This document shows, one piece after another, positions 1-64,000 of a DNA stretch of 64,000 nucleotides. Each line of letters begins with the position of its first letter. Position 1 is the first letter of the stretch. Origin of the DNA: Lunularia cruciata (Eukaryota > Streptophyta > Marchantiopsida > Lunulariales > Lunulariaceae). The stretch is taken from contig OX419760.1 in assembly GCA_948567375.1 (NCBI GenBank), positions 64,471,398-64,535,397 of the forward strand, in the 5' to 3' direction. The position numbers and the translations under genes were made by a program. Below the pieces are notes generated by a model. That model saw nothing but the letters and a program-made list of their open reading frames with translations. It ran no database searches and was not told the DNA's origin.

Positions 1-569
1 GTGGATGCATCTGCAGCAGTGACCAGGAGTGCAGTACGTGCTCCAAAGCCTAGAGGAGCATAGTGGAGTTGGACCCACAGAGAGGAGAGGTTGGGAGACA
101 GGTCAGACTTCCCTTGTCTTTCACGCTATCTGAGGCATTGCAGACAACATCCATGGTTCCTAGACATCCCAGTGCAGGTGTGGTAGGTGGTGATGGAGTG
201 TATGATGGACTACCTGCTAGTCAACCACCTACTACTACACAGACTGAGTCTAGCATGATGTTGGGGGCGGCTCAGCTGATTATGCGGCATCCTTTATTGT
301 CAGCCAGTGACATGTTTACATTGGGAGTTGACCCAGCCCCATTGTTCCGGTTGGCTGCCACGCTGTGTGAGAGTAGGGATGGTGCGGTTCCTACTACTAG
401 AGCAGAGGTGGTTGGTAGTGGAGTTGACTTGGTTGAGGAGCATGGGATCCGTTAAGCGACCAGTGGTTTATGGCAGGCAGCAACGGCTAGACTGGAGGAG
501 TTGCCAGCTAGACCGGCCTTTGAGAGAGCGCGGTTTACACCTGGTGTTTTCCTATTGGATAACCAAAGG

Positions 570-1110
570 GGGATTTTTTGTTTGGTGGGACCTTCAAGGA
601 AGGTCTATACACCACAGAGAGTCTTGTTAGACTCTGGTGCGTAGCCCCTTATGTTGGGGAAGGCTGCAGTTGTTGGTCTGGAGTTACGGAAGACCGATGT
701 GGAGAGGTGTCCATTTCAGATCCAGACATCTCTTGGTGGTGGTTTGACACAATACGTCACACGTGGAGAGCTTGTTGTCCAAGTTCAGCCTGGTCATCCG
801 ACTGATAGCTCGGTGGTGAGAGCTCAGGCTATTGCGACGATAGCTGAGTCATATGATGTGCTAGTTGGGGGAGCAATGTTATACCCCATGGGTTTCAGCA
901 TTGACTATTGGGAGGAGACAGCCTCTTATAGACCTAGTTGGCAGTATGGTGAGAGACGGGTATGTTGCCTACCAGTACGCTTCAGTAGTGGCAATCTTGG
1001 CTCACTACAGTCCGGGACCATGGCAGCATCACTTTTGGCTGTCAGCGGTGCAGTCACTTGGCCTGGTGACTTGTTGGAGGGGAACGCCCATGCAGAGGAT
1101 ACTCTAATAC
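570..1110 (+). other. Retropepsin-like aspartic protease domain
   Basis: A segment reading VLLDSGA begins at about 621, followed directly by the TAG at 642 and then PLMLG. This is the DSGA-type catalytic motif of retroelement proteases with a stop where a glutamine codon is plausible. Downstream, YDVLVGG (near 855-875) fits the conserved hydrophobic-then-glycine segment near the end of the retropepsin fold. The domain sits between the Gag remnant and the methyltransferase. It would cut the polyprotein, including release of the methyltransferase, if translated. Confidence 0.65.
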
Positions 1111-1334
1111 CAGAGGAGATCACTCGGCTATGGAGTACGAGTGGGATTGTTCCATCCACCTTGGATGTTCCATTGTGGAGTTCAGAGGAGGCATTGCAGT
1201 AGCATGCAGATTAGTTGGTGCAGCAGGCTTGGAGTAGAGCCTTTGTACCATCAGGGGATGAGTGTGAGGATGAGCCTCCAGAGGCGATTGCTTTGACACC
1301 TCTGGATACCACACTCATTGCTTGGCAGTATCTA

Positions 1335-2300
1335 GTAGAGGGGATATGCCTATTGGAGTTGTTTGGTGGGATCAGCACCGGACTAGCTGCGGTGTTACAG
1401 GCGGGTATCAGAGTACAGAGGTACTTGTATGTAGAGAGGGATGAGACTGCTAGGCGAGTCTCTCTACATCATGTGGCGCACTTGGCCTATCGGTATCCGG
1501 AGTTATTACCGATGTCAGCAGTCAGAGGTTACCAGAAGGCCCTACCAAGAGACATTTCCTTACTGGGGGTGCATGACCTAGAGAGACATGGGCCTATTCA
1601 CTTGGTGATTTTTGGATGGCCATGTCAGGGACATACACGTGCTGGTAGAGGATTGGGTCTTCAGGATCCTCGTTCTGGTGTGTTTTGGGAGATGTTACGG
1701 ATACTACGACATCTCCAAGTTCATCAGTCTGTTTCTCCAGCTTACCTTTTGGAGAACGTTCCTTTGATGGGGGATTCTTGCACTAGAGTGGTGGCGAGTA
1801 CACATCAGGTCCATTCTTGGATAGGACCTGCTGTATTGTTAGATGCAGCCAGAGTGGGATCACGGGCTCATCGTCTTCGTCTTTGGTGGACGAACCTCTT
1901 ACCCAGAGAGGTTTTACAGCATGCTTATGATGGGATTCAGCAATTGGACCACATTCTTGTTGATGATATCTTGGATGTTGGGCGTCAGTCTCAGACAGTG
2001 GTCGTGGCTGATAGGTCACCTATGGCAGTGGTGAACCTAGTTGGACAGCCTAGAGCTGCATTTCCCACACTCATGAGTTTCCCAGGCTCTCATGCTTTTT
2101 GAGAGGGAGGACCTGGACTTGTTTGGGACTCACAGTTACAGCAGTTGGTGGAGCCCAATGCTGATGAGAGAGAGCGGGCGATGGGTTTTTGCACCGGTAT
2201 TACCGCTGTTCTAGCAATGTCAGAGGCATCCAGGCATCAGGTGTTAGGTCAGGCTATGGACCTGAACTATTTGACCTGGATTGTGAGCCTTGGTTTGGCA
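1335..2300 (+). other. C5-cytosine DNA methyltransferase domain (DNMT3/DRM-like) inside the retrotransposon
   Basis: The expected motifs occur in order. Motif I reads LLELFGGISTGL from 1350 and binds S-adenosylmethionine. Motif IV reads GWPCQGHT with the catalytic cysteine codon at 1623-1625. Motif VI reads LLENV near 1746-1760. A motif VIII-like segment reads AHRLRLWWTN near 1866-1895. After a TGA at 2100 there are ERERAMGF (about 2166) and VLGQAMD (about 2241-2261), resembling motifs IX and X. The HR-x-R-x-x-W-x-N signature and preceding DAARV resemble DNMT3 and plant DRM catalytic domains more than DNMT1/CMT, and the motif order is not the rearranged DRM order. The enzyme would methylate DNA, perhaps the element's own cDNA. 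Methyltransferases captured by retrotransposons have been reported in charophytes and dinoflagellates (de Mendoza and colleagues, 2018, from memory). Confidence 0.88.
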
Positions 2301-2729
2301 GAGCAGCGTAGGATGCGCTTGATAGGCATCACCACTCAGACACTTGTGAGCCCTGTGCCTATCGAGACGATTCAGGCACATGCTGGGGGCGATGGACCGA
2401 GTGGACATGGTATTCTTGGGACACATCCAGTAGCTACTAGGGAGAGTGGTCTACTTGGAGTCCATCCAGGTGAGCGTGGGCTACTTGGATTACACCCTTG
2501 GTCCACATGGGATGCAGCTAGAGGACGTGTGGAGCTTGCAGCCAGAGTGGAGGGAGTTTTTCACACAGAGGTTGGGACCTCTAGTGGTCGGGAGCATGAC
2601 ACTATTGCTCCCAAGGGCCCAGTATAGCAGCTAGTCAGTACGTCTTCCACTCCTACTACAGTTACAAAGGATACTTCGGAGCCAGATCTTGGACCCAAGC
2701 TTACTGGAGAGGAAAGACAGAGGGTTTGG

Positions 2730-4130
2730 AGGTTCTTGAGGAGTCACACGAGTTGTTTTGCCTTCAATATGAAGGATTTGGGTGCTCTGAAGGGACTTGG
2801 TATACGGATTGAGCTGACTAGCGACACACCTATTTTCCGACGTCCTTATCAATATAGTGATATGGAGAGGACATTGATTCAGAGCCGGAGTAGTGACCTT
2901 TTTGAGGCTGGTTTGGTGGAGATTTCACATGGAGAGTATGCATCAGCGACAGTGATGCCAGCCAAGAAGGATATGCATGGCAACTATACAGATAGGCGGA
3001 TGTGTGGAGATTACCGTCCTATCAACCGACAGACCAGGGCTGATCGGTATGCCATGCCTACACCGGAGGAGATTTTTGATGCAATTGGGCATGCAAAGGT
3101 CTTTAGTACTTTGGATCTTTGAGCGGGATATCATCAGTTGCCGATCAGAGAGGAGGATAAGTCCAAGACAACATTTTGGGCTATTGATCCTCATGGCAAG
3201 GATGTGTTATATCAGTGGAGGTTCTTACCATTTGGGTTGAAGAACGCTCCTGTTGAGTTCCAGAGGGTCATGGATAGGATCCTAGCTGGATTGGATTTTG
3301 CTCGGTGCTATATTGATGACATTTTGATTTATAGCACTACTGTGGAGGAGCATGAGAGACAGTTGTTGGAGGTGTTTGAGAGGTTAAGATCTCCTGGACT
3401 CAAATTACATCTTGGGAAGTGTAGGTTCTTCCATGAGCAGGTTGAGTATTTGGGTCACACTATCTACCCCGGAGGACTTGGTGTTTAGCAGACCAAGGTG
3501 GAGGCTATTGCACGTATTCCTCGGCCTACGGATGTGAGCAGAGTGCAAGCATTCCTTGGGTTGGCGAACTTCTATCGCCGCTATGTTAGAGGATTTAGTG
3601 CCATTGCCAAGGCCTTGACGAAGCTGACCAAGCTTACATAGGAGTGGTGTTGGGGAGATGAGCAGGAGAGAGCTTTTGTAGAGCTCAAGGAGAGGTTGAC
3701 ATCTGCTCCTATTTTGAGGAGACCGATCAGGGGACGACCATTTCAGGTTCACACTGATTGGAGTATGTTGGGGCTTGGAGCGGTGCTCACCCAACATGAT
3801 GATGAGGAGAAGGAGTTTGTGGTGGCCTATGCTAGTCACTCCAACAATTCAGCAGAGGCGAAGTATAGTTCATATGAGGGAGAGTGCTTGGCAGCAGTTT
3901 GGGCAGTAGCACATTTCCGATGTTACCTATTTGGTAACCCCTTCACTCTCATCACTGATCATCAACCACTGAAGTGGTTGATGAAGTCCGACAAGCTTTT
4001 AGGGAAGCTTGCACGATGGGCTCTGATTTTACAAGAGTATGATTTCACGGTTGTTCATAGACCTGGAGTGGTGAACCGTGATGCAGATGGGTTGAGTAGA
4101 AACCCATGTCCTAGCCAGCAAGATCAGACC
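2730..4130 (+). other. Reverse transcriptase and RNase H domains (Ty3/gypsy)
   Basis: RT motifs include DYRPINRQT (near 3008-3035), STLDL followed by a TGA at 3120 and then AGYHQLPI, LPFGLKNAP (about 3225), and the catalytic YIDD at 3309-3320 followed by ILIYS. RNase H follows with VHTDWSMLGLGAVL (first catalytic aspartate near 3756), SYEGECLA (glutamate near 3880) and TDHQPLKWL (aspartate near 3957). Stops at 3120, 3486 and 3639 interrupt an otherwise continuous frame. The RT is a conventional Ty3/gypsy enzyme, and its active-site residues are retained. Confidence 0.9.
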
Positions 4131-4489
4131 GGAGCACGTTGGCATGGTGAGACAGATGAGGAGATGGTGCCAGGTTGGCATGCATCGGCCTTTCTGTGTA
4201 TATTTGCAGAGACTTTGGTGGTATCTCTCTCAACGCATACAGGAGGAGTTATTGAGGTCACAGATCTAGAGAGTGAAGATATTGGTACAGTTCAGCGAGA
4301 CATTCATGATGATGTCTTAGTGATGGACTATCTTCGCACTGGTGTTGTGGGTGGCACAGTTGGGGCCAAGGAGAGGGACCGTGTTCTTCAGCAAGCCAGA
4401 CGGTTCAGATTGGAGGGTAGACACCTTTTGCGTGTATGGGAGGATGGTAGAGTGCGAGTAGTACCACTTCCATCACAGAGGCCACAGTT

Positions 4490-5570
4490 GGTCCGTCATA
4501 CTCATGAGGAGCTAAGACATTTTGGAGTAAAGCGTACATATAGCTTACTCCAGAGTCATTATTGGTGGCGCGGTATGCAGACCGAGGTACAGCAGTTTGT
4601 TGCTAGATGTGTGGTTTGTGACCGAGTTAGAGCATCATTCAATGCTCCTACGCCATAGTTACACCCATTACCTATCATGGGATTGGGTTACCGTTGGAGT
4701 TTGGACTTCACCGGACCTTTACCGCTGACCGTGAGACATCATCGGTATGTTTTGGTGATGGTGGAGCACTTCTCCAAGTGGATTGAGTTGGTGGCACTTC
4801 TTGACAAGTCTAGTGAAGGGACAGCTTACTCATTCATGGATCGAGTTCTTAGTCATTTTGGTGCACCAGCTGAGGTTTTGACTGATCAGGGTACAGAGTT
4901 CTTGGGAGAGTTTCAGGTCTTGTGTGACAAGGCTTTGATTGATCATCGTACTACATCCTGAGATCACCCTGAGGCAGATGGCTTAGCAGAGAGAGTGGTT
5001 CAGACGGTGAAGAGAGGATTGCGAAAGTATGGTTTGCAGAGAGGCCACTTGGGAGATTGGGATCTCCAGTTACCTTGGTTGGCCATGGGCTATCAGTGGT
5101 TCAGCCGGCAAGCCTCCTTAGCATCCTTCTCTCCATACTTTCTACTCTATGGACGAGATCCAGATTTACCTACAGCCATTTGTCGAGATGCTACTGTAGT
5201 TTTGGACTTGGATGACCCCGATGTATGGATGAGCGCATGTTCTCAACGGGCAGAGATCTTTCGGAGAGTGATGCCGATGGCCTTTGAGAACTTGGCAATT
5301 GCTCAGCATAGAGATACTTTACGTTATGCTACCATTCGAGGAGGAGGTTATAGACCCTCGATCCGTCGATTTCATCCAGGCGACTATGTATATCTACAGT
5401 AGACAGCACCGACGACACTTGATGTTTCTACAGGCCGCACTATCTTGAGAGTGCGCGAGGTTTTGCCATCTGGAGTCCTTGTGTTAGAAGGACGTGATGG
5501 TGTTGTTTGGAAGGATCATGTGCGCAATTGTGCGCCATGCCACCTTCCAAACATTGATGGTACTATGGAC
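4490..5570 (+). other. Integrase domain (HHCC finger, catalytic core, C-terminal domain)
   Basis: An HHCC zinc finger runs from about 4497 to 4625 (HTHEELRHFG, then CVVCDR). The core contains WSLDFTG (first Asp codon 4704), VLTDQGTEF (second Asp 4884) and DHPEADGLAERV (Glu 4989), giving the DDE triad. Stops at 4656 and 4959 fall between and within these motifs without shifting frame. After the core, GDYVYLQ (about 5380-5400) and a basic, hydrophobic stretch to about 5570 form the likely SH3-like C-terminal domain, which leads directly into the PHD finger. Confidence 0.87.
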
Positions 5571-5603
5571 CCAAGCTTGGCATTTGTATGTGCAGGCTTG
5601 AGG

Positions 5604-5738
5604 TGTATGTTATGTGGCTCTTCTGGTGGAGTTGCTTCTATGTTAGTGTGTGATAGCTGTTTGAGAGGATGGCATATGGCATGTATGACTCCTCCCCTCA
5701 CGGTGGTTCCTCAGGGACAGTGGTTATGTCTTAGATGT
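5604..5738 (+). other. PHD zinc finger at the C terminus of the retrotransposon polyprotein
   Basis: The C4HC3 pattern is complete: CMLC at 5604, VCDSC, then WHMAC, and WLCLRC ending at 5738, with the usual tryptophan just before the last cysteine pair. PHD fingers read histone H3 tails in known proteins. Here the finger lies after the integrase C-terminal domain, where chromoviruses carry a chromodomain, so an integration-targeting or chromatin-reading role is a reasonable inference. I recall PHD-like tails on some algal Ty3 elements but cannot check it. Confidence 0.85.
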
Positions 5739-5744
5739 ACTTGA

Positions 5745-5913
5745 CCTGTAGCTAGTTCATTCTTTATATGGTATAGATTGCAGACAGGCGACTAACGATG
5801 GGGCTCCATAGCACCCGGCCTCCTGATCTTTGCCCATTAGAGGGTATACCATATACTTGGAGTAGATGGCTATCTGGAGTTAGAGGGACCTAACCGCTAG
5901 CTAGGGGGGCGAT
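5745..5913 (+). other. 3' untranslated region and polypurine tract of the methyltransferase element
   Basis: No conserved domain is visible after the PHD finger. The frame contains several stops here. The segment ends in a short G-rich run (about 5901-5911) immediately before the LTR, a suitable polypurine primer for plus-strand synthesis. Confidence 0.6.
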
Positions 5914-6471
5914 TGTGGCACTTTAGAGTCTATGTATGACTTATGTGTGAGTTGTGCTTTTATAGTGTATGATGTTGACAGCGATGTATGTTGTGTAACG
6001 ATGTATATACGCACGACAGCTATCACGCCATTTGTAGTTCCGCATCTAGATGCTCGGACACTGGAGTTCCAGTGATGGTAGTTAGAGTTATTCTAGCAGT
6101 TTCTCAAGGACTACTTTCTGACGGTTAGATTTTGTTTTTGGGGTATTGACTTCACGGTGGGGCCCACCGTCACTTTGCACCGTTTGCACCGTCGAGTGTG
6201 CCGTCAGCGGGACCGTTAGGGTTTCAGGGCTAGCTCAAGTCCAGGGGGTATAGTTTCGAAGTGAGCTCCAGAGAGCTCACTTCTCTGATGTTGAGCCTTC
6301 GAGTTCCTGGCTATGGTGGATAGAGGCCGGCGAGCGTCACCTGGATTCTCTATGCTTGAGTGGGTGTGGCTTGACTGTAATCAGTGCCTAGTTGTTGGCA
6401 GTTTATAGAGTGACAAATCAAGTACTGATCTGAGTTGAGTTGAGTTGAGAGTGTTAAGCAATCTGATTTAT
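5914..6471 (+). repeat. 3' LTR of the methyltransferase element
   Basis: It starts TGTGGCAC directly after the polypurine tract. Its first 105 bases recur almost unchanged at 6472, so its right boundary is inferred from that restart, giving about 558 bases. The right end does not show a clean CA, so the exact boundary is uncertain. The partner 5' LTR is outside the window. Confidence 0.6.
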
Positions 6472-6577
6472 TGTGGCACTTTAGAGTCTATGTATGACTT
6501 ATGTGTGAGTTGTGTTTTTATAGTGTATGATGTTGACAGCGATGTATGTTGTGTAGCGATGTATATACGCACGACAT
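6472..6577 (+). repeat. Second, truncated copy of the LTR start
   Basis: About 105 bases repeat 5914-6018 nearly perfectly (TGTGGCAC to ACGCACGACA). The sequence then switches abruptly to the 3' end of a different element. This is a junction left by a second insertion, a tandem LTR or recombination. Confidence 0.75.
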
Positions 6578-9340: not shown

Positions 9341-9933
9341 TAACAATTTTGAGATATGAAGAGGCAGATATGAAGCGGTGCATTGTCATTTTGGATCTAC
9401 AGGTTAGAAGAGTTGTTGTAGAACGGTATAGTTGTTAGAACTGTTGATTTGATTCACTATTTAAGAGTGGCATTCGTAGTCAGATGTTGTTCAGTGCTCA
9501 TTATTTCTGAGAATAGATAAAGCAAAGTGTTGTGAAGCAGTGCTCGTCACTTGAGCTTGATTCCGAGTATCAACTTTATAATTGTGTTTATGAGTGTTGG
9601 GAGAATTTCAAAGTGCAAGTCAATGTGTTTGTTGGATGTTAGATTACACAGCCTTGATCTTCATTTTGTGTATTTGATCTTGAGTGAAGTGCAATCAAAG
9701 CAATGCCTTGACAAATCTGAGAGGAATTGTAGTGTTGGTAGTATTCTACATTTATGAGTGCAGTGTGAGGTTGATGTGAAGCAATTTTGATCAAGGAAGT
9801 TGTGCCTTCAATGGAGGGGTGGAACACAATTTTGAGGCAAAGTGGTTTTGCATTGAAGTGCCATTTTTGGGAGAGCCTGAATCATCACAATCAAGATTGT
9901 TTGGAAAGATTTGATGGAGTTGTGATTAAGGAG
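9341..9933 (+). other. Non-coding stretch between the accessory ORF and the 202-bp repeat
   Basis: I see no coding potential beyond short random frames. The sequence is probably the untranslated 3' part of the preceding element. Confidence 0.5.
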
Positions 9934-10135
9934 TGTTAATTTGTGACAAGATTGCGAATCAGTGCTTGTTACTCTCTTCTGGGTGTGGTTTCTACCTGAG
10001 AGACTAAAGAAGAACTCAAGAAGAACTACATGTTATTGTTTGACTTTGTATTTGACCAATTCTGACTCGTATCTCTACGGGAATGAACTTTACTTACCTG
10101 ATTACTGCAAAAGTGATATTTGCCGGGTTGGCACA
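9934..10135 (+). repeat. 202-bp direct repeat, left copy (candidate LTR)
   Basis: It begins TGTTAAT and ends GGCACA, and is about 95 percent identical by eye to 12604-12805. Terminal TG and CA suggest LTRs. However, about nine further bases upstream (GATTAAGGA) are also shared, which host flank next to a 5' LTR should not be. The left copy may therefore be both the 3' LTR of the preceding unit and the 5' LTR of the next. Confidence 0.65.
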
Positions 10136-12603
10136 TGATTTTTCCCACCGTTGCCATGGATACAAATCTTGGAAGTGGAAGAATACAATGCCAAATTCAA
10201 AATTGGGTATCAACGCAATATGAATGTCTACATTAAGAGAACAATGGGAAGAGAGAGCTTGAAGACAAGCACTTCAGTGTGAAGAAGATGAACGTCTGAA
10301 CATCCCATCCACTGTTGACAAAACTGAACGAGAGGCGTTGGACTTTCAACTCCTTCACGAAGTGCAAGAAGCCCTGTGAGAACTTGACCACAAGAAATGC
10401 GAAGGCGGTTGGCATGGCTACTTTGCTTCTCCCTCTTCGTCCAAGAAGAAGAAAGTATCGAGTGGGCAAACATATGCATTGCGGCCCAATACACCGACTT
10501 CCCCTAGAGTTGTAAAGGAAGTTGTGTCCTTGAAGAACTTTGTTCAAGAAAAGACAACACAAACACTTACTGAAGACAAGTGTCAACATCTTCTACGAAC
10601 GATTCCTTGGTTGTCTCGAAGGAATTTTGAAGAACCAATCGAAGGTGTTGATCTTGAATCTTCCACTTGGGTTGAAGTCGACACCCTCATCGCAGAAATT
10701 GTTGAAGAAGACCCCACTTTGAATCTGACAAATTGGAATCCATGGGTTGACAACATGGTGTCGATACCAGCCAATCCTTCAGTTCCATCAAGTTCAACAC
10801 TACCTCAACCGATCCCAGTGCATCAAACAATGACTTCGTTGCCCGTCACCCGACACGCCTATCGGAAGTAGAAGGGGACAGAAAAAGACAAAGACCCCGA
10901 TGAATTCATTGAAGAATTTGAAGTCATCTCCTTTGCTAACAAGGAGCATGACTCGGCGGATCAATTGAGAATTTTCCCAAGTTTGCTCCGAAAGAAAGCT
11001 TGGAGCTGGTACACCCATGTGAACTAGAAGGGGTTTGTATTAGCGGACTGGGCAGACTTGAGAAACAACTTCCTGGAATGATTCCGGGAGGTTGATTATG
11101 ACACGGGTGTCTTCACGGCACTCAATGATTTAGACCGGGGCAAGAAGGAGAAGTTGAGAGACTACTCTGAGCGGTTCATGGCACTATTGAACCGAGTTCC
11201 CAAGCAATCGGGGGTGGTGGGTTACTCCGATGCCCAAGCCATTACCTGATTCCTCGGGGGACTTTCACCATAGATACAAATCTTTGCAAGGGAGAGGAAT
11301 GTAACTTCCTTTGACAAAGTACTCAAACATGTTGCTTGTTACGAGGCGGCCCACTCTCACTCTGCTGGTAACTGGATAAATCGAGAGAAGAAAGGCAAGA
11401 AGCCTAGAAGGAGAGCTTCACACAATACATCCCCTTCTTCGGACGAATCCTCTACATCTTTGAGCTCTTCTTCGGAATCCGAAGAAGAATCAAAGCCAAG
11501 ACAAGTTAGAAGACGTGGGGGCAAGAAACTAGTGACTTCTCCAATGAAGAGTGTAAATAAGGCAGATACCAAGCTGGATGCCCTCATCAAGGAGTTTTTG
11601 GATTTCAAGATCCAGATGATTGGGGCCAAAGACAGAAGGAAGGCCCCAACATTTGGGAGATCAAATGTATGGTGCACCGCATGTGGCAAATCAGGCCACG
11701 CAAAAACAAAATGCAATACTCGTAATGCATTCCCGGTGTAGCAAATTGATTGAGTTCTAGGATGGAACCAAGACGAGGATGAAAAGGCTATGTACCAAAC
11801 GCAAGAAGTACAGCCTCAAGCGAGCACATCGTACCAAGGTCCAAGGTTTGGACCAAGGGAGTATAACCCCAATGCTCCTCCACGAAGACCACCGATAAGC
11901 AACCAAAATAGCCCTCAGAATGTTGCACCCGGAGCCTGTTATAATTGTGGCTCAATGGGACATTGGTCTCTAAACTGTCCCAAGCCAAGAAGGCAAATCA
12001 AGTACGTTTTGCTGTGCGGAAATTGTAAAGGATCAAGACATACGGGCAACCAATGTCCTCACCCACCGAACCCGAAGCCGCCTGTAAAGTATGTACAGAC
12101 CCCCGCTGAGCGTGCAGCAATTCAGCCAAAGGGGGATACTAATGTAAATTGTATCACTCTTGAGGAAGAAAGACCTCAAGAAGGGAGTCCGGCCTCGGAA
12201 GGAGAATGGCCGGACCTTGAAATTTTGAAAGTTGAGACACGCTCCAGCAAGAAGAAGCGTGATGCCAAAGAACTGAGTATGACCTCGTTGTCTTCCAAAA
12301 AGGCGAAGAGACTACGCCCAAAGGTAATTCTTTTTGCTAAGGAGGAAAAGATCCAGGCAAAAGCCAAAGCTAAAGCCTTGCAGAAAGAACTAAAAGAGGA
12401 ACTACTCAAGACTCGGGAACCGAGTTTGGAAGAGGAGACGAAGACGAAGTCTCCAATTTTTCCGGCGGACATCCAATCCAAAGTAAAGGGTCTGATCCAA
12501 GCCAAGGTGGGCCAACCAGGGGAACCTCAGGTTAAGGCCATTAGCAAGCCCGTCACCATTTTGAAGCGTCCTAAAGTCAAGAGGGAACATGAAGATTAAG
12601 GAC
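10136..12603 (+). mobile_element. Gag-only (non-autonomous) Ty3-like unit between two 202-bp repeats
   Basis: The 2.47-kb interior holds a single long Gag frame and no protease, reverse transcriptase or integrase. With flanking direct repeats this resembles a non-autonomous LTR element that relies on another element's enzymes. No clear primer-binding site complementary to initiator tRNA-Met is visible after the left repeat. Confidence 0.55.
10224..12599 (+). pseudogene. Retrotransposon Gag polyprotein with three zinc knuckles, interrupted by nonsense codons
   Basis: From ATG 10224 the frame is continuous for 792 codons. Interruptions are TGA at 10260, 10377, 11079, 11247 and 11751 and TAG at 10869, 11025, 11271 and 11739; there is no frameshift. 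The capsid-like domain (about 10880-11340) shows the usual retrotransposon Gag features: DEFIEEFE, LRKKAWSWY, then LRDYSERFMALLNRVP. A serine-rich linker follows. Three CCHC knuckles come next: CTACGKSGHAKTKC (about 11670), CYNCGSMGHWSLNC (about 11937) and CGNCKGSRHTGNQC (about 12018). The C-terminal 180 residues are lysine- and glutamate-rich. It packages element RNA in known families. Confidence 0.8.
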
Positions 12604-12805
12604 TGTTAATTCGTGACAAGACTATGAATCAGTGCTTGTTACTCTCTTCTGGGTGTGGTTTCTACTTGAGAGACTAAAGAAGAACTCAAGAAGAACTACA
12701 TGTTACTGTTTGACTTTGTATTTGACCAATTCTGACTCGTATCTCTACGGGAATAAACTTTACTTACCTGATTACCGCAAAAGTGATATTTGCCGGGTTG
12801 TCACA
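12604..12805 (+). repeat. 202-bp direct repeat, right copy (candidate 3' LTR)
   Basis: It begins TGTTAAT four bases after the Gag stop and ends TGTCACA. It is nearly identical to 9934-10135, so the unit inserted fairly recently compared with its neighbours. No target-site duplication matches across the pair. Confidence 0.65.
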
Positions 12806-15399: not shown

Positions 15400-16062
15400 T
15401 ATCACCTCATGAGTTGGAGGAGTATAAGGCTCAAATTGAGGATATGTTGCAAAGGAGTTTATCCAACCCAACATATCACTATATGGGGCATCTATATTGT
15501 TTGTGAAGAAGAAGGATGGAACAATGCACATGTGCATTGACTATTGGAGACTAAATCAACAAATGGTGAAGAACAAATATCAATTACCTTGCATGGATGA
15601 CTTGTTTGATCAACTCAATGGGGCAAGGCACTTCACCAAACTTGATTTGCAGAGCAATTACAACCAAATCAAAATTGTAAAAGAAGACATATACAAAACT
15701 GCCTTTCAAACAAGGTATGATTACTTTGAGTACTTGGTGATACCATTTGGCCTCACCAATGTCCAATCACTTTCATGAGATAGATGAATGACATATTTTT
15801 TCCGTACTTGGATAATTTTGTTATCATTTTTCTTGATAACATCCTAGTCTATAATAGGACATTGACAGAGCACAAGCAACATTTGCAAGAAGTCCTCCTT
15901 ATTTTGCAATATAATCAATTGTATGCTAGAATCTCAAAGTACAAGTTTGACACATTTGAAGTAGACTACTTAGGGCATAGAGTAAGTGCAAAAGGTATCC
16001 AAATGTTAATAGATAAAATAAAAGTTATTCAAAAATGGAGTGCTCTAAAAGATCAGACTTAA
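15400..16062 (+). pseudogene. Reverse transcriptase remnant of the chromovirus
   Basis: Pieces in different frames show [44 protein letters not shown] and then FLDNILVYN. The last corresponds to the catalytic YxDD box, here altered to LDN, so the enzyme is inactivated. YLGHRVSAKGIQM follows near the end of the palm and thumb region. Confidence 0.75.
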
Positions 16063-17590
16063 CTTAAGAGTGTCTTGGGATTAATGGGTTCTTATCATGA
16101 ATTTTTCAAGGACTTCTCCAAGATTGCATAGCCTCTAACAACACTATTGGGCAAGAGGAAGAAGTGGATATAGGGTCCGCACAAGAATTGACATTTCAAG
16201 AGTTGAAAGATGTATTACTATATGCACCAATCTTGAAATGGTATGACCCAAAATGTTCAATCAAGATGGCTATAGATGCATCAAGTGTAGCAATAGGAGT
16301 AGTCCTACAACAAGAATGGTAGGAGGGATGGCACCTAATTGCATATTTCTCTTGTAAGTTATTACTAACATAATGCAACTATCATACCACCAAACAAGAA
16401 GAGTTGGAACCAAGCATTGGAAGCACTACCTAGGTGAGAAGGCATTTGTGGTAGAGACGGACCACAAACCTCTAGTCTACCTTAAGACATAAAAATATCT
16501 TTCTCTTCAAAAGATTTGGTGTGCTGAGTGGAGACAACAATTCAACATGACAATCAGATATGTGGAGGCAAGAAGTAACTTGCAGATGCATTCACCCAAA
16601 TGCCAATGGCAAACAATTTGGTGGTGGAAGTCAAGATGAACCCTAAATTCTGGCCCAAGATTCTTGTTGCTACAAAAACTGATCCATAGATTGTAGGTGC
16701 TCAATCATCTAAAGGCATCACTAGCACCCAAGGACTCACCTTCTGTGATAGTTAGTTATGGATCCTAGATGATACAAATCTAAGAACCACTACCCAAGTG
16801 GAATGTCATGATTCTGCCATTGCAAGTCACATTAGAGTGGACAAGACCTTTCATGCCGTCAAATGCCATTACTACTGGCCCAAGATGAGCAACAATGTGA
16901 TGGAATATGTTTGGAGTTGCCTACTTTGTCAACAAAATAAGGCTTCTAATCAAGCTCCCACATGACTCCTCCAACTTCTCCTCACTCCTACATAATGTTG
17001 GGAATAGGTAAGAATAGATCTTGTTTGTGAATTGTCCAAGACCACCTTTAGGTTTGACTCCATTGTAGTCTTTATTGATTGACTCAGCAAAATGATTCAT
17101 GTAAGTCCTACCACCAAGGATGTGATTGCTTTGCAACTAGCTCAATTGTACTTAGATGCAATCTTCTCCCATCATGACTTTTCTAGAGTGCTCATCATAG
17201 ATAGAGACACTCAATTCACTAGTTTGTTTTGGAGAGCACTCTTTGGGTTCTTCAAAACCAAATGTGCCATGTCCACAACTTACCATCTATAGACAGATGG
17301 ACAAATAGAGAGGGCAAATCACACTATGGAGTACATGCTTTGGAGCTTTACTTTGGATGAGCAAGAGAGTTGAGACACCTTACTCCCATTGGTGGAATTT
17401 TCTTACAACAATTTAGTGAATGTCTCCACACAAGTCACACCATTCTTCCTCATGTATGGAGAGCATCCTTTCATACCTTGAATCTCAATGAAGATCCATC
17501 TGATGGCTACTAAGGTTGACATTGTCAACACTTTTGTTTCTAGAATCCAATAGGGTGTAGAGAACTCTAAGCTTAGGTTGCAGATCGCTT
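16063..17590 (+). pseudogene. RNase H and integrase remnants of the chromovirus
   Basis: RNase H traces appear at 16255-16330 (a segment around aspartate-alanine-serine) and a TDHKPL-like stretch near 16458. Integrase is recognisable from the HHCC region (about 16835-16940) and the core (IDRDTQFTS near 17200 and TTYHL*TDGQ near 17275). Frames shift and stops are frequent. The order matches Ty3/gypsy. Confidence 0.6.
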
Positions 17591-19515: not shown

Positions 19516-22110
19516 TAAACTCAAAACTATGTATGCTTCTTCTATCCCTTTGTTGACCATTCTAGGGATATTGATCCAATCATGGGAGTGGTTCACAACT
19601 CAAGTGGGTTATATCTTGGGGTTATTTGAGACTAGTTTTCCATTTCCAAATTTAAACCATACCTTGTACACTCCATGATCAGGCTAGATAGGCATTTCAT
19701 CTACCACTTGATTGTTTGGCATGTGATCCCTTGGACAAGTTAGCATGATTCCTATTATTCTTACTCCCTTGATGGTGCTTTAATTATATTAAAAGGGGAC
19801 ATGTGGAGCATAAAGAGGTGGCTATTAAATTTTGTTGATTCTAAGTGAGGGATTAGGCTGACTATATGAGGCGTTGGTTAGGGCCACACATTTTAGGAGT
19901 TAAATTCTACCACAAGATACCAAAAAGTCCACTTGATTACAATGGTATAGGACATTGGGGTCAAGCAAGATAGTTGAGTAGCACAAGCAATACACCTTTA
20001 TTTTTACACCTTTAGTCTTACCTCCAAGAGCATCTTAATCTACTTCAGTTTGGAGTAGCTACACCTAGAGGTTGTGAGGCTATATCTCTAAGCATTAAGC
20101 CCCTCTTATATATCCATCAGTAGTGGATCATCCTATAGGTGTCTCTTGGGTATCTATCTTTATAGAGCTTAGGAAGGCCGGTGGATCCTTGGTGAGTCTC
20201 ATTCCTTTTGTGCGGTTGTTCTATAACCCTCTTGATTTCCCTTACTACCAATATGGTTAGTCATAGGAGAAAGTCACCATCTTGGAGTCAGTTGTTGGTA
20301 CACAATAGGGAGATCCTTCAAAGGGAAATTTGTTTGCCATGGCTCACTTCAAAGCTCTTTTAACTACTACTTTTGCCATGCCAAGTTGTGTATTTCTCTC
20401 CTTGGTGGATGATACACACTTTATGGGCCCCATAGATCAGATTAGGCAAGCCTTTGATCACTTGACTACCAAGCTACTACTTGTAGGCTTGAGAGTCAAG
20501 GTGTCAAAGTGCAAAGCATGGTCCCTTTCAACTATCTCTCCTCACTTTGAGCTTCCAAAGTGGTGTCATATCTATAGATGAACTACATATTCTTGGATTA
20601 CTAGTAGTATCTGAGGATTTTATCACATGCTTCTTAGATGTTGCTCTTGCTGAGAATATTCTCCATGTGGATGACCTTCTTCTACTAGGAGATCTACAAG
20701 TGGCATTTGGTATACTCTCTTCTAGTGTTGCCCGTTGATCAACTTACCTTTTTTGCATGATTCTCCCTTTTTTTTGGCTTTCCTATTGTGTTTGAGCACT
20801 TTGGTGATGTCATTGGACCAAGGAAATTTGAGTGTGTGATGGAGGATTTGGCATATAGACAAACATCTTTATGGATCTTGTGTAGAAGAGTAGGACTATT
20901 AGATGTGGAGAAGACAACACCAATAACATCTTTAGGTAGTTGAGCTCTTGACACCCTTATTTTTCTCCCATTTTGTGGTTGCTACTAGGCCAATATTGGA
21001 GATATATATGACCAAGGTGGAGGAGAGATCCTTTTCTGTCCGGATGTTCTTATGGCAGACAAGATATGGTCTATCTCCACAAGCGCAAGAGGACCTTCCG
21101 TCCTTTACTTAACTATCATTAGAATGGACCAGAGGTTTAGAATCTTCCTTGATAGAGAACAATATCAGCATACGTTACATTCTTTCTTAGTTGAAGTCCA
21201 TTCCTCATGCCACTAGAGCACATCTTTGCTCTTGCTCCGGCAAGGATGCAAGCTCTTGGATCCTAGCTCAATTGTGCATTAGGGCATTTTGACTCGCACC
21301 AATGACCTTCTCTACAATGATGAGGATCCACTTAGGTTTGGTGCACTTGTCTACATCTTTGTTACTAACTTGTGAGTGTGGTTCTATACTAGAATGCAAC
21401 AACAATCCATATGACATGATGTCCTTTTGGAGGATAGAGGATAACTACCCATGATGTCATTAGGGATATAGTGTTTGTTATGGCACGAGAGAGTGGATAC
21501 CTTACTTGGAAGGAGCTTTTGTATGCTTTGCAAGTGATATCTATCAAAGCAGATTTATATTTGGTGTGAGATGATCAAGTGACAATGGTGGATGTTATGG
21601 GTTATAGATTCTACATGTGATGAAAATTTGGAGGGAATGATTACTCATCCTCTTGGATGGACGACACGGTGTAGCAACATGCAAGGTCTCCAAGTCTAAA
21701 ATTTTGTAGTGAAGTCACCTCTTTGTTCCTCTAGCCTTGGAGTTATATGGAGTGATGGACATTACGTTTGATACATTAGTCAAGGAGTGCGCGAGAGCTT
21801 ATCATATTAGATGTCAAGGATACCACTCTCACTCTCATACTTTGTAGTATATTGTAGACAACATGTGTTCGTCACTCCATAGAGAGCATTTGCAATAAGA
21901 GCAATCACACTAGGTGATGCTTCTTTTAAAGCTCCATTAATTTACAGACCTTACAACTTACCTAGCTCAGATATCTTAGGTGATGCTTCTTTTGAAGCTC
22001 CATTAATTTACAGACCTTACAACTTACCTAGCTCAGATATTAGCTCATATTGATACTCTTGGGTTAAGGTCCATTTGACCTCTTTTGTCTCCCCCTTGGA
22101 GGGAGACAAA
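19516..22110 (+). mobile_element. Non-LTR retrotransposon, older 5'-truncated copy A
   Basis: It aligns by eye with copy B (22888-26150) from about 19520, lacking B's N-terminal zinc-finger region. The RT motif C is visible as SLVDDTHFMGP (near 20400-20430). The cysteine-rich and endonuclease-like tail follows around 21360-21660. Frameshifts and stops are numerous. It contains a local 66-bp tandem duplication (21911-22040). The 3' hairpin present in other copies is degraded here (about 22050). Confidence 0.75.
21911..22040 (+). repeat. 66-bp tandem duplication in the 3' part of LINE copy A
   Basis: The unit starting TAGGTGATGC at 21911 repeats from 21977 with one or two differences. The single-copy equivalent occurs at 43980 and 25930 in other copies, so the duplication is local to this one. 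Confidence 0.9.
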
Positions 22111-22887
22111 GAGTTCTTAACTCAAAATCAAGAACCACCAAAATTTGACTATAACATAGTTCTACCCGGAAAGAAAAAGTTCCCCTACTTCTCACATAGA
22201 CTTCATGTAATTATCAGTAAAACCTTCTTCCGAGATTTCCAAAAGTCAAAAAGGCCCTTTTTGAAACCCTTGTTACACCAACTAAATTCTTGAATCCAAA
22301 CCTGCTGTGCCCACCAAAATTTTGTAGTCCTTCTGCAAACACAAAATACTGCAAAAGTCCTAAAGTCCAAAGCCTCATGCGGAGGCTTATGACTTTTGAC
22401 TTCTGATAGGATTGAGTCTATTGAGTCTCTTAGGATTGAGCTGCGGGAGAGTGTGGAGACGGGAGAGGAGAAGGAGAGATGTGAGACAATTTCTATAATT
22501 TCTGAGTGCTCTCTAGCATGTAGCATTCAAGTGAATAGTAGATTCTTTTCACTTTCAATTTTGGTTCCATTGGCACCTGGATTGAAGACTATGGAGAATG
22601 GAGTAGAAAGCTATGAAGATTTTTAGCTTTTTTAGGGTTTAGAGTGATCATTATACATTGAGAGTGATGGGTTGGGAATTTTCATTTCCAATCTCTTGGT
22701 TTTCATGATTAAGTTCCATGGGAATTAGTTTGAAAATTTTGGAGATGGAAATTGAAAGTTATGAGAGCTTATAGATTTTAGGGTTTGGAGAGATTGTTTT
22801 CTTATGTGAGTTGGGATGTGAGGGTTGTGATTTTGCAGATATGGGGACATATAGAGAGGAGCAGAATGTGTTACTATCACTATTCTT
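22111..22887. other. Stretch between LINE copies A and B
   Basis: I see no gene. Short open frames exist but carry no recognised motif. Part of it may be the 5' untranslated region of LINE copy B. Confidence 0.45.
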
Positions 22888-23334
22888 GTGCTAGCCATGG
22901 CTACTCCTTCCCATGTGGGGTCACCTAGAGCGGGTCGGGATACACCATGCCCGGTGTGTCATCAACGCTTTACCTCGCAAGGGGTAAAGACCCATGTGAG
23001 AAGGATGCACAAGGACTTTGATTTGACCTCTTGGGATGCGCACCTGAGACAATCGACCACATCGACAGTAGTGACACTTGGGATTATGCACGCTTCTTCT
23101 ATACCTTTGTTGATTGTTCCAAGGATACCGATCGAGTCGTGGGAGTGGTTAGCTTCTCAAGCGGGATGCATTTTGGGGTTATTTGAGACTAGTTTTCCAT
23201 GTCCACATCTATTCCATAGGCTACCCTACACACTCCATGATGAGGCTAGACAAGCTTTTTGCTTACCATTGGATTGTTTGGCACGTGATCCCATGGACGA
23301 GTTAGCATGGTTCCTATTCCTCCTACTCCCTTGA
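22888..23334 (+). pseudogene. N-terminal zinc-finger part of the LINE protein
   Basis: The frame starts at an ATG-like codon (MLAMATPSHVG) and holds one C2H2 finger, C-x2-C ... H-x3/4-H, followed by a segment conserved in copy A (SSIPLL ... SWEWL). Such fingers bind the target DNA site in R2-type elements; that role is inferred here. The open frame stops at 23334, and the RT part continues in other frames. Confidence 0.7.
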
Positions 23335-26150
23335 TGGTATCTTTGTTATGCTAGAGGGGGACATGCAAGGCATAGAGAGGTGGTAGCTAGATTTTGTCGA
23401 TTCTAAGCGGGGGATTGGGCAGCCCTTTAGGAGGAGTCTATTAGGGCTACACAATTTAGGAGTGGGCATTGTCATAGGATACAACAGATTCCACTTGATA
23501 ACGACAATGTAGGACATTGGGTCAGGCGAGAGAGTTTAGTAGAGCAGCACAAGCGCTACACCTTTTGTTTATAGCGAGTCCTACTGATAAGACCATCTCT
23601 TCCCTATGCTCATTGCATCCTATAGCAGTAGACGGACTACCACTAGAGGTCTTAGATTATCAGCCTAAGCAGCCTTTATGTCTTGATAGGTCGCTATTTG
23701 CACAAGCATTGTGCACTGCCCCTTGCCTTTCCTCAAGAAGCTTGTCATAGATGGTTTATGAGCACCTTAGAGATTACTTCCAGGCAGATGATCCTTCTAG
23801 TGGTTTTATTGAGTTGTTTTAGGTGGCTGTAGTAGTAGCAAGAGGAAATATTCCTATGTTTGTTAGTCGGGTGTTATGTGCTAGTTGACTTCTCGCAATG
23901 GAGAAGGACACGAGAGGCATTAGACCAATTGCTATTGGAGAGATCTTTTTGCGTTTGGTCAGTCATACCATAGTCCTTCAGCATCATTCTCACTTTTGAC
24001 AACACCTTAGTCCACATCAGTTTGGAGTAGCTACACTTGGAGGATGTGAGGCTATATCTCTAGGCATTAGAGCACTCCTAGATATCCATCTGGGGTGGGT
24101 CGTTCTATAGGTGGATGTTGAGAATGCTTTTAATAGCGTCTCACGTGCATCCATCTTTAGAGAGCTTAGGGAGGCTGGTGGATCCTTGGCTAGTTTCATT
24201 CCTTTTGTGTAGTCTTTTTATGGCTCTAAGGCTTCCCTTTATTACCAACATGGTGGTTCATAGGAGGGAGTCACCGTCTTGGTGTTAGCTATTGGTATAC
24301 ATCAGGGAGATCCTTTGGGGGGCCCTTATTTGCCATGGCTCACTTTAGAGCTCTCCTATCTACTACTTTGGCCATGCCAGGTTGTGTATTTCCCTCCTTG
24401 GTAGATGATACACACATCGTAGGCCCTATAGATCAGATTAGGCAGACCTTTGACTACTTGACTACCGAGCTACATCTAGTAGGCTTGAGAGTCAAGTGTC
24501 AAAGTGTAGGGCATGGTCCCCTTTAGGTATCCCTCCCCACCTTGAGCTTCAAGAGGGGTGTATCACATCCACAGATGGACTTTGTGTTCTTGGAGTGCCA
24601 GTACAATTGGAGGATTTTGTCACACGCTTCTTGGACGCTGCCCTTGTAGAGGATGTTCTCCATGTGGATGACCATCCATTACTAGGAGATCCGCAGGTGG
24701 CATTTGGTATACTCTCTTCCAGTATTGCTTGCCAACCATCCTATCTCATTTGTACAGTTCCCCCCTCACCGTCCTTCTTATCACGTCTGAGAGCATTTGA
24801 TAGGAGGATTATGGGAGTCTTTGATGATATTATTGGACCAAGGACTTTTGAGTGTGTGATAGGGGATTTGGCACGTAGACATACCTCTCTACCAATCTCA
24901 TGTGGTGGGGTTGGCTTGCTTTCTATGGAGGAGATGGCATCTATAGCATTTTTGGGCAGTTGTGCTCTCTCGGCACCCCTACTTTCCTCTCGTTTTGTGG
25001 TTGCTGATAAGCCGGTTTTGGAGACTTATGTGACCAAGGTGGAGGGAGGATCCTTTTCTCTCTAGGTGTTATTGCGGCAGACGAGAGATAGTCTATCCTC
25101 ATGAGCACGAGAGTGTTTTCCACCGTTTGCTTCACTAGATTGGACTAGAGGTTTATAGTCTTCCTTGATGGAGCGACAGTGTGAGCATACGCTGCATTCT
25201 CTCTTAGTTGACTCGTCCATTCCTTAGGCTACTAGAGCACGTCTACGCTCTTGCTCCGGCAAGGGTGTAGGCTCGTGGATCTTAGCTCGACCGTGCATTA
25301 GGGCTTTCCGACTCGCACTGGCTACTTTCTCTAATGTGATGAGATTTTGCCTAGGTTTGGTCCACCCATATGCATCTTCACTACTCACTTGTGAGTGTGG
25401 TTCTACACTAGATGCAGCGGCGGTCCACATGACACGGTGTCCTTTTGGAGGAGAGAGGATAGCTACCCATGATGCCATTAGAGACATAGTGTTTGCTATG
25501 GCGCGAGAGAGTGGATACTTTGCTTGGAGGGAGCGCTCGTACGCTTTGTAGACGATGCGTGTCAGGGCAGACTTATACTTGGTCCGAGATGATCAAGTGA
25601 CAATAGCGGATGTCGTGGTCACGGACCCTACGTGGGATACAATTTTGGAGGGAGTGATTACACATCCCCCTAATGGGCGGCGAGTGTAGCAGTAGGTCGC
25701 AAGGTCTCCAAGTATAGGGGCATGCAGCTAGGTCACTTATTTGTTCCTCTAGCCTTGGAGTTACATGGAGCGATGTACACGGCATTTGACACATTTGTCA
25801 GGGAGTGCATGAGAGTTTATCATGTTAGACGTAAGGGGTACCTCTCACTCTCATACTTTGTAGCATATTTTAGATAGTGTGTGTCCATTGCTCTAAAGAG
25901 TGCGGTGGCGGGTGCAATCCATAGGAGAGCAATCACATTGGGTATGTTTCTTATGATGTTGTAGTTGTATGTAGACCGGCCGACTTGCATAGGTCGGGTA
26001 TCTTAGGTGCAACGGGCAGATTTCTCGTAGGGACTCTATTGGGGCTTAGCCCCATGTTACCTTCTTTTTTGTCTCTCCCTTGTTCGGCTTGATGGGGTCT
26101 TCCATCCTTCTTTTTTCCTACGCGGTTGCCTTTTACTTGCGGAAATTCAG
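22888..26150 (+). mobile_element. Non-LTR retrotransposon with C2H2 finger and restriction-like endonuclease tail, copy B
   Basis: Domain order is an N-terminal C2H2 finger (CPVCHQRF to HVRRMH, near 22950-23010), RT in the middle, then a CCHC motif (CECGSTLDAAAVHMTRC, about 25395-25445) and a tail with ATHDAIRDIVFA and RADLYLVRDDQVTIADVVV (about 25565-25620). That order is typical of non-LTR elements with a restriction-like endonuclease rather than an AP endonuclease. RT motif A reads VDVENAFNS (near 24110), motif B GIHQGDPLGGPLF (about 24295-24330) and motif C LVDDTHIVGP (about 24400-24430). Frameshifts and stops make it a pseudo-element. The 3' end carries a GGGGCTTAGCCCC hairpin at 26041. 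Confidence 0.82.
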
Positions 26151-63694: not shown

Positions 63695-64000
63695 TTAGGG
63701 TTTAAGGGTTAAGGGTTAAGGGTTTAAGGGCTAAGGGTTATAGGTTTTAGGGGTTTAGGGTTTGAGTCTAGCGTTTAGGGTTTACGGTCAAGGGTTTAGG
63801 GATAGGGTTTAGCGTTGGGTTTAGGGGTTTAGGGGTTTAGGGTTTAGGGTTTAGGGGTTTAGGGTTTAGTGTTGGGTTTAGGGTTTAGGGTTTAGGGTTT
63901 AGGTTTTGGGTTTAGGGTTTAGGGTTTAGGGTTTAGGGTTTAGGGTTTTAGGGTTTTAGGGTTTAGGGTGGGGTTTAGGGTTTAGGGTTTAGGGTTTAGG
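63695..64000 (+). repeat. Telomeric TTTAGGG tract with degenerate proximal end
   Basis: At the left, variants such as TTAAGGG, TTTAAGGG, CTAAGGG and TTATAGG predominate. From about 63825 the canonical TTTAGGG becomes regular, with occasional TTTAGGGG, TTTTAGGG and GTTGGG. The G-rich strand reads 5' to 3' toward the right edge, the orientation of a right-hand chromosome end. An internal telomeric block cannot be excluded from the window alone. Confidence 0.93.

Follow-up and report, generated by a model that had tools for sequence, protein, structure and literature searches.

Hosts silence transposons by cytosine methylation, so that a retrotransposon bringing its own DNMT3 presents a paradox, and the role of such an enzyme was left open by the 2018 work. 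The same question is raised by a stretch of 64,000 nucleotides from the liverwort Lunularia cruciata, here called the window. Its first part (1-5744) is occupied by the Pol side of a Ty3/gypsy element, which corresponds to the element's second half. The domains are arranged as (Gag)-PR-MT / RT-RH-IN-PHD: protease (PR), cytosine methyltransferase (MT), reverse transcriptase (RT), RNase H (RH), integrase (IN) and a PHD finger. All lie in one frame, with codon starts divisible by 3. The preliminary description of this DNA, a Ty3/gypsy element with a cytosine MT between protease and RT, was borne out by Pfam, alignments and motifs.

All of the domains were found on the plus strand. The aspartic protease region (522-1032, borders estimated from alignment to the Marchantia proteins P0229 and P0237) contains LLDSGA at 624-641, with a TAG immediately 3' at 642. 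The C5-cytosine MT domain of DNMT3 type (1335-2282; Pfam PF00145) is 74% identical to P0001 over 316 columns, has its catalytic Cys codon at 1623 and is broken by a TGA at 2100-2102. It is followed by a tail with the motif HPWSTWD (2283-2624), which from this motif and a near-equal end distance in P0008 and P0229 would be the C-terminus of a presumed Gag-PR-MT ORF. The RT (2769-3515; YIDD at 3309, stops at 3120 and 3486) was recognized by Pfam RVT_1 in its second half (2.3e-25), by 76% identity to Marchantia P0244 over 190 columns and by Ty3 RT as the best match in the PDB (1.2e-21). RNase H (3651-4040; Pfam RT_RNaseH, 4.2e-36) and the integrase, with an H2C2 zinc domain and an rve core (4470-4955; Pfam Integrase_H2C2, 6.9e-17, and rve, 1.5e-13; stop at 4656), complete the PR-RT-RH-IN order of Ty3/gypsy elements, as given by Pfam and the alignments. 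The C-terminus of the integrase is a PHD finger (5604-5738; Pfam PHD PF00628, E 6.1e-10), which is conserved in relatives and was not mentioned in the preliminary description; the terminator TGA is at 5742. The N-terminal part of Gag lies upstream of the window, with residue 459 of P0229 aligning at position 66. No frameshift was seen, single tblastn matches spanning 66-2597 (P0229) and 2682-5738 (P0290). Two 107-nt terminal-repeat pieces follow on the plus strand at 5912-6018 and 6470-6576; they are 98% identical and LTR-like, although their assignment is unsure. The pair may belong to the LTR, and the 5' end of the element lies outside the window.

The MT motifs had also been described as lying in one frame with an upstream DSGA protease and a downstream YIDD RT. 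They do so, but the frame is not open in this copy. Between 3 and 5744 there are 14 in-frame stops, of which 12 are disabling, one (2625) is probably natural and one is the terminator at 5742. Among the disabling stops are TGA 2100, which interrupts the MT, TAG 1200 and TAG 1212, which lie between PR and MT, and the stop at 51, counted although it has no aligned relative. The copy in the window is dead and decayed. Five of the 12 disabling stops (642, 1200, 2100, 3120 and 5400) fall where the majority of relatives carry a Q or R from which the stop can be reached by a single C-to-T change (CAG to TAG, CGA to TGA); at TAG 642 the residue is Q in 39 of 42 relatives. At 4656 (Q in 11/46) and 4959 (R in 34/73) the residue one C-to-T step away is merely the commonest. 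At 1212, R is found in 41 of 53 relatives but no Arg codon is one step away, and at 453, 3486 and 3639 the relatives have mixed residues. The CpG observed/expected ratio is 0.43 in the coding part of the element vs. 0.50 in the rest of the window, which is not distinctive. Decay of this copy driven by methylated cytosines is possible, the signal in this test being weak.

Other repeats were observed in the window. A second, degenerate gypsy RT and integrase (15458-17478), with 25-57% identity in pieces to the relatives of the MT element, served as an outgroup. At 36527-41115 there is a degenerate Ty1/copia element (zinc knuckle, integrase and RT by eye) with strong CpG depletion (observed/expected 0.13) and a duplicated RT part, the copies being about 1.5 kb apart and 80-89% identical. 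A 281-aa ORF (11754-12599) with a CCHC-like zinc knuckle is Gag-like by eye; it is flanked by a 212-nt direct repeat (95%) at 9924 and 12594 (region 9924-12805) that may be an LTR pair. The region 19660-26000 contains two diverged block copies about 3.6-4 kb apart, with pieces 73-87% identical, and a degenerate TTTAGGG array of the plant telomere type was found at 63751-63990. Neither a tRNA nor an Rfam match at gathering score was found in the window.

The MT motifs originally listed, I (LLELFGG), IV (GWPCQG, Cys codon 1623), VI (ENV), VIII-like (HRLRLWW) and IX/X (ERERAMGF, LGQAMD), are present, and Pfam DNA_methylase gave the window MT 31.4 bits vs. a cut-off of 22. In the PDB, the intact relative P0001 matched DNMT3A best (6e-12; residues 47-231 and 320-353, in linear order) and DNMT3B next. 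Weaker matches were DRM chains (1.2e-8 to 1.7e-4, query 43-170 only), HaeIII (3.5e-4), HhaI (3.8e-3) and DNMT2-type enzymes (7e-3 to 1.4). A DNMT3-type motif order had been proposed and was confirmed: the motifs run linearly from I to X with a catalytic PC and ENV, and DNMT3A ranked first. The additional label "DRM-like" had to be dropped, since the order is linear as in DNMT3 and not permuted (VI-X before I-V) as in DRM. A DRM identity was also rejected on the matches, query 43-170 covering just the C-terminal part of the DRM chains whereas DNMT3A matches in linear order. So was a bacterial restriction MT, HaeIII (3.5e-4) and HhaI (about 4e-3) lying far below DNMT3A (6e-12). Grouping with bacterial enzymes, which had been set in advance as evidence against the proposal, was not seen with the one bacterial row included (HhaI), and the scores also favor DNMT3A. 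In that tree a 100/99 branch separates HhaI and DNMT2, as a pair, from DNMT3A plus the family; its branches are very long, DNMT3A falls inside layout A (defined below) and the window row was in the wrong frame. Judged by the PDB matches, the MT is of DNMT3 type, neither DRM nor bacterial.

Relatives were collected by protein searches that spanned lengths of about 162-516 and 690-2190 aa, a range in which single-ORF elements near 3000 aa would be missed. The MT search returned 108 proteins, with Calypogeia fissa, Marchantia polymorpha, M. paleacea, Riccia sorocarpa, Sphagnum troendelagicum, S. tenellum and Closterium sp. NIES-54 as named hosts; the Closterium sp. NIES-54 match is a 200-aa MT with Pol parts not in view. 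A second MT search, among longer proteins (about 690-2190 aa), added 77 more, including numerous gene models from Marchantia as well as single proteins from Calypogeia and Sphagnum fallax. An integrase-PHD search returned 420 proteins, and the best 120 of the 420 were taken further. No confirmed relative was found in the viral-contig or genome-contig sequence collections. The MT rows nearest to the window are P0232 (Calypogeia), P0001, P0231 and P0229 (Marchantia). The relatives keep the MT joined to Pol parts, an arrangement seen in Marchantia, Calypogeia, Riccia and Sphagnum; the preliminary description had asked for further copies with the MT in frame with Pol, and those found come from relatives elsewhere. 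Sphagnum P0017, with 69% identity to the piece from the window, Marchantia P0229 and Calypogeia P0232 (77 and 75% to P0001) have MTs that resemble each other closely in view of the distance between their hosts. This closeness could reflect horizontal transfer.

Custom domain profiles were run on 305 proteins and distinguished two layouts, PR-MT-RT-RH-IN-PHD (A, that of the window) and RT-RH-MT-IN-PHD (B). In 13 of the 34 proteins with both MT and RT, the MT precedes the RT (layout A), six of the 13 being annotated gene models from bryophytes; the other 21 are ordered RT-RH-MT (layout B). Two layout-B proteins have additional parts: P0272, a Pol, carries an extra precomputed domain, PF21743, and P0283 (EukProt gene3516-biopygen5211), an MT-IN-PHD protein of 2140 aa, has about 1100 residues beyond the PHD. 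For the MT tree, the 76 of 186 MT-match proteins with one stretch of at least 270 residues were reduced to 56 by an 82% redundancy filter, giving 58 rows with the window and DNMT3A. With DNMT3A as the root, 24 layout-B rows and P0095, a protein that runs from MT into H2C2, form one clade (99/99). Omission of the long row P0304 left a single branch dividing A from B (SH-aLRT 98.9), with P0095 assigned by hand to B and the six other unassigned rows to A. The RT tree (8 A rows including the window, 20 B rows) has the same single A/B split (97/98). When it was rooted on Ty3 and the window's second RT, B formed one clade (98/97) nested among A rows, so that layout A would be the older order; the support of this root is just 84/96, with one long outgroup row, a Ty3 row spanning 45% of the columns and P0304 again left out.

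Since one branch separates the layouts in both the MT and the RT trees, the MT probably moved once within Pol, and the simplest account of these trees is one MT capture followed by one such move. The possibility was considered that DNMT3 was captured twice independently, once per layout. The clean split of the layouts would agree with this, and independent captures in other elements are described by De Mendoza et al. (PMC5890265). However, A and B share a longer motif II-IV stretch (57-62 residues in nine family rows vs. 40 in DNMT3A), the region preceding motif IX is likewise longer in both (65-75 vs. 61), the same RT/IN/PHD family surrounds the MT in both, and B nests among the A rows in the rooted RT tree (root 84/96). 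Two captures are for these reasons considered unlikely. An assembly chimera, or a chance insertion of an MT beside a gypsy element, has a negligible chance: nothing was found in its favor, and the same order recurs in gene models from Marchantia, Riccia and Sphagnum as well as numerous other contigs, intact relatives included.

The residues required of an active MT were compared in an alignment with DNMT3A, using the longer, non-redundant rows with the six unassigned rows counted as A and P0095 left out. The catalytic Cys is kept in all 56 MTs (32/32 of layout A, window included, and 24/24 of layout B). The Glu of ENV is present in 31/32 layout-A and 24/24 layout-B rows, and the two Arg of HRxR in 31/32 and 30/32 rows of layout A and in 24/24 and 24/24 of layout B. 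In P0075, a shorter relative outside the counted rows, Tyr replaces the catalytic Cys. For the 16 proteins with all three domains, 14 of them layout B, the mean pairwise identity was 42.6% for MT, 47.2% for RT and 43.9% for IN, and the MT and RT identities across these proteins had a correlation of 0.83. The window is 42.6, 44.1 and 44.7% identical to P0269 in MT, RT and IN, respectively, and 69.4 and 76.7% identical to P0237 in MT and RT. Against P0290, the MT (38.6%) is clearly less conserved than the RT (53.4%) and IN (63.5%). These identities indicate that the MT is constrained, but less so than RT and IN in part of layout A.

The position of the stop behind the MT bears on how much of the enzyme is made. 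In the 29 proteins where a PR precedes a complete MT, the C-terminus lies 63-187 aa beyond the MT, and in 14 more, with the protease not in view, 61-101 aa beyond it; some ends among the 29 may be contig or gene-model ends, and three Marchantia models are marked partial. The tail lengths recur (85 aa in six proteins, 101 in six), as do the C-terminal ends ALSATK and GNGASSSN. A CCHC knuckle is present in 22 of the 29, and 19 of these also start with Met, so that these proteins look like whole Gag-PR-MT ORFs. One of the 29, P0285, falls outside the window's 25-row clade. In the window the tail is closed by TAG CAG CTA (2625-2633, plus strand). This TAG is 37 codons past HPWSTWD vs. 36 in P0229 and 38 in P0008, and its matching place, a recurring end of the first ORF in the relatives, makes decay an unlikely origin. 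The CAGCTA that follows fits CARYYA, the type I readthrough consensus after UAG in tobamoviruses, which are plant viruses (PMC5382211), and 2625 is the sole in-frame stop of the window in this context. TAG-CARYYA occurs 7 times on both strands of the whole window vs. 4.7 expected, so only its place makes 2625 notable, and the context is known from one DNA sequence, that of the window.

The stop does not extend to the whole of layout A. Five proteins (P0233, P0237, P0239, P0241 and P0260) run from PR-MT into RT or RNase H; all of these, and Riccia P0083 too, come from gene annotation, in which predicted introns may bypass the stop. Seven other layout-A proteins (P0268, P0273, P0280, P0281, P0290, P0292 and P0304) read from MT to RT without a stop, which confines it to part of the layout. 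Gag-PR-MT seems to form a separate ORF in the window's lineage. A presumed leaky stop 3' of the MT would place the enzyme in the abundant product; the MT is probably made at Gag level and packed in particles, where it could methylate cDNA.

The PHD finger was present in 23 of the 30 proteins with MT and IN, among them P0120, a gene model from Marchantia in which the order of the pieces is disturbed. Of the seven proteins without it, six end 0-76 residues past the IN match and the seventh, P0297, runs into a PHD-like stretch that is broken. In the PDB, the P0109 finger matched CHD4, MLL3, PHF12, DPF3 and KDM5B best, followed by PHF21A, ATXR5, UHRF1 and AIRE; several, not all, of these proteins read the unmodified H3 N-terminus or H3K4me0. 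Readers of H3K4me3 carry a cage Trp. The commonest forms of the finger (SRGW, STGW and NGGY; 39 of 80 complete fingers) have Gly at that position. Many H3K4me0 readers have an acidic residue before the first Cys, and the window PHD has none there. No chromodomain was found in the window ORFs or in the six relatives scanned, the C-terminus of the integrase being occupied by the PHD.

DNA methylation proteins in retrotransposons have precedents. Animal DNMT3A, with its ADD and MTase domains, has the same type of MT domain, and its ADD is an H3-reading zinc finger, so that a reader of this kind is paired with a DNMT3 writer. Unlike DNMT3A, the element has these as separate polyprotein parts, its finger is a classical PHD by Pfam, and the equivalent of R882, an interface residue in DNMT3A, is mostly Glu (28/32 layout-A rows). 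Chromoviruses, the chromodomain Ty3/gypsy elements, likewise have a chromatin-reader-type domain at the integrase C-terminus, but theirs is a chromodomain and that of the window element a PHD finger. Arthropod retrotransposons reportedly captured a methyl-CpG-binding domain, as De Mendoza et al. are said to have described in 2019; this is again a captured DNA-methylation protein, although a methyl-CpG reader and not a writer.

The nearest systems are those of De Mendoza et al. 2018 (PMC5890265), who describe KnitGypsy-Dnmt3 in Klebsormidium, as well as dinoflagellate DIRS and LINE elements with DNMT3. KnitGypsy-Dnmt3 of Klebsormidium nitens is, like the present element, an LTR gypsy Pol with a DNMT3-type MT, without rearrangement, and its MT is reported there to be under purifying selection. 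A DNMT3 within a gypsy Pol polyprotein is a feature of layouts A and B as well, the lineage of the window having its MT before a stop. KnitGypsy-Dnmt3 differs in that it is reported from one charophyte and is described with the MT in the Pol ORF, whereas in the window lineage it is apparently in a Gag-PR ORF. Its repeats are given as DIRS-like in order, A-coding-B-A-B (PMC5890265), and the term PHD is absent from the main text of that paper. SymbioDIRS-Dnmt3 of dinoflagellates has a DNMT3-type MT in Pol and two coexisting domain orders, as here, but belongs to the tyrosine-recombinase DIRS class. According to the same paper (PMC5890265), its MTs methylate CG in yeast and were the only ones to show activity; KnitGypsy-Dnmt3 gave no methylation in yeast, a result the authors called inconclusive. 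A 2025 survey refers to DNMT3 in streptophyte and dinoflagellate retrotransposons as something already reported (PMC12344493). In the open-licence literature, including the available parts of PMC6453930, PMC9516144, PMC10952607 and PMC3286476, no bryophyte case, no gypsy-integrase PHD and no later report was found. MT-carrying retrotransposons are known from an alga and from dinoflagellates; the bryophyte distribution, the linked PHD, the two Pol layouts and the probable Gag-level supply of the MT look new.

A mechanism can be put together from these features, and as a whole it is offered tentatively, its chance approaching an even one. The MT would be translated as the C-terminus of Gag-PR-MT, and the leaky UAG at 2625, in its CARYYA context, would let a minority of ribosomes continue to RT-RH-IN-PHD, so that the MT would be packed at Gag level. 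The packed enzyme would methylate double-stranded cDNA in the particle or pre-integration complex, and the new copy would in that case arrive already marked; we infer that the element may mark its own cDNA in this way. The PHD, possibly a reader of unmethylated H3K4, would steer the integrase to silent chromatin, where an insertion would be less harmful and less exposed. The kept catalytic residues, the recurrent stop behind the MT, the linked PHD and the CG methylation by SymbioDIRS MTs favor this mechanism; the negative yeast result for KnitGypsy-Dnmt3, the lower MT identity to P0290, the Tyr of P0075 and the layout-A proteins without the stop count against it. For the finger, CHD4, KDM5B, PHF21A and ATXR5 among the PDB matches are in its favor, MLL3, PHF12 and DPF3 and the missing acidic residue are not. 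A broader reading, which we regard as rather doubtful, is that of a complete reader-writer device: a DNMT3 writer made in Gag amounts through the leaky UAG and present in every particle would methylate the cDNA ahead of integration, and an H3-reading PHD on the integrase would direct it to silent chromatin. The writer, captured a single time at the Gag side, would later have been relocated to a place in Pol between RNase H and integrase, its dose changing from Gag to Pol level.

Other roles for the MT have to be weighed against self-marking of the cDNA. The enzyme might act in trans, its target being the host genome or further copies of the element and not its own cDNA; it could, for example, hold down copy number or attract host silencing. 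Accidental action on the host genome and slower retrotransposition are raised as options by De Mendoza et al. (PMC5890265), and a Gag-level supply would ease spill-over onto the host genome. However, that the MT has remained linked to Pol parts across its one probable relocation favors a function within the replication cycle, and action in trans is judged to have perhaps one chance in several. Less probable still is that the MT works on RNA (genomic RNA or primer tRNA) as DNMT2 does, or that its part in the particle is to bind nucleic acid without catalysis. Packing with Gag would place the MT beside RNA, and the absence of DNA methylation by KnitGypsy-Dnmt3 in yeast (PMC5890265) would fit, but the DNMT2-type matches are weak (7e-3 to 1.4 vs. 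6e-12 for DNMT3A) and the catalytic motifs are kept. That the MT is a functionless passenger kept by chance is very improbable. This copy is indeed broken inside the MT (TGA 2100), and the comparison with P0290 gives the MT a lower conservation than RT and IN, but the catalytic residues are kept down to about 35-40% identity in both layouts and the mean conservation of the MT is close to that of IN.

Both liverworts and mosses have these elements, and one of the hosts is the genetic model Marchantia polymorpha, so that the question of why a retrotransposon carries a DNMT3 can be tested in a plant with good genetics. The two layouts point to a question of dose and timing, Gag-level against Pol-level supply of the MT, and the linked PHD suggests that marking and targeting belong together.
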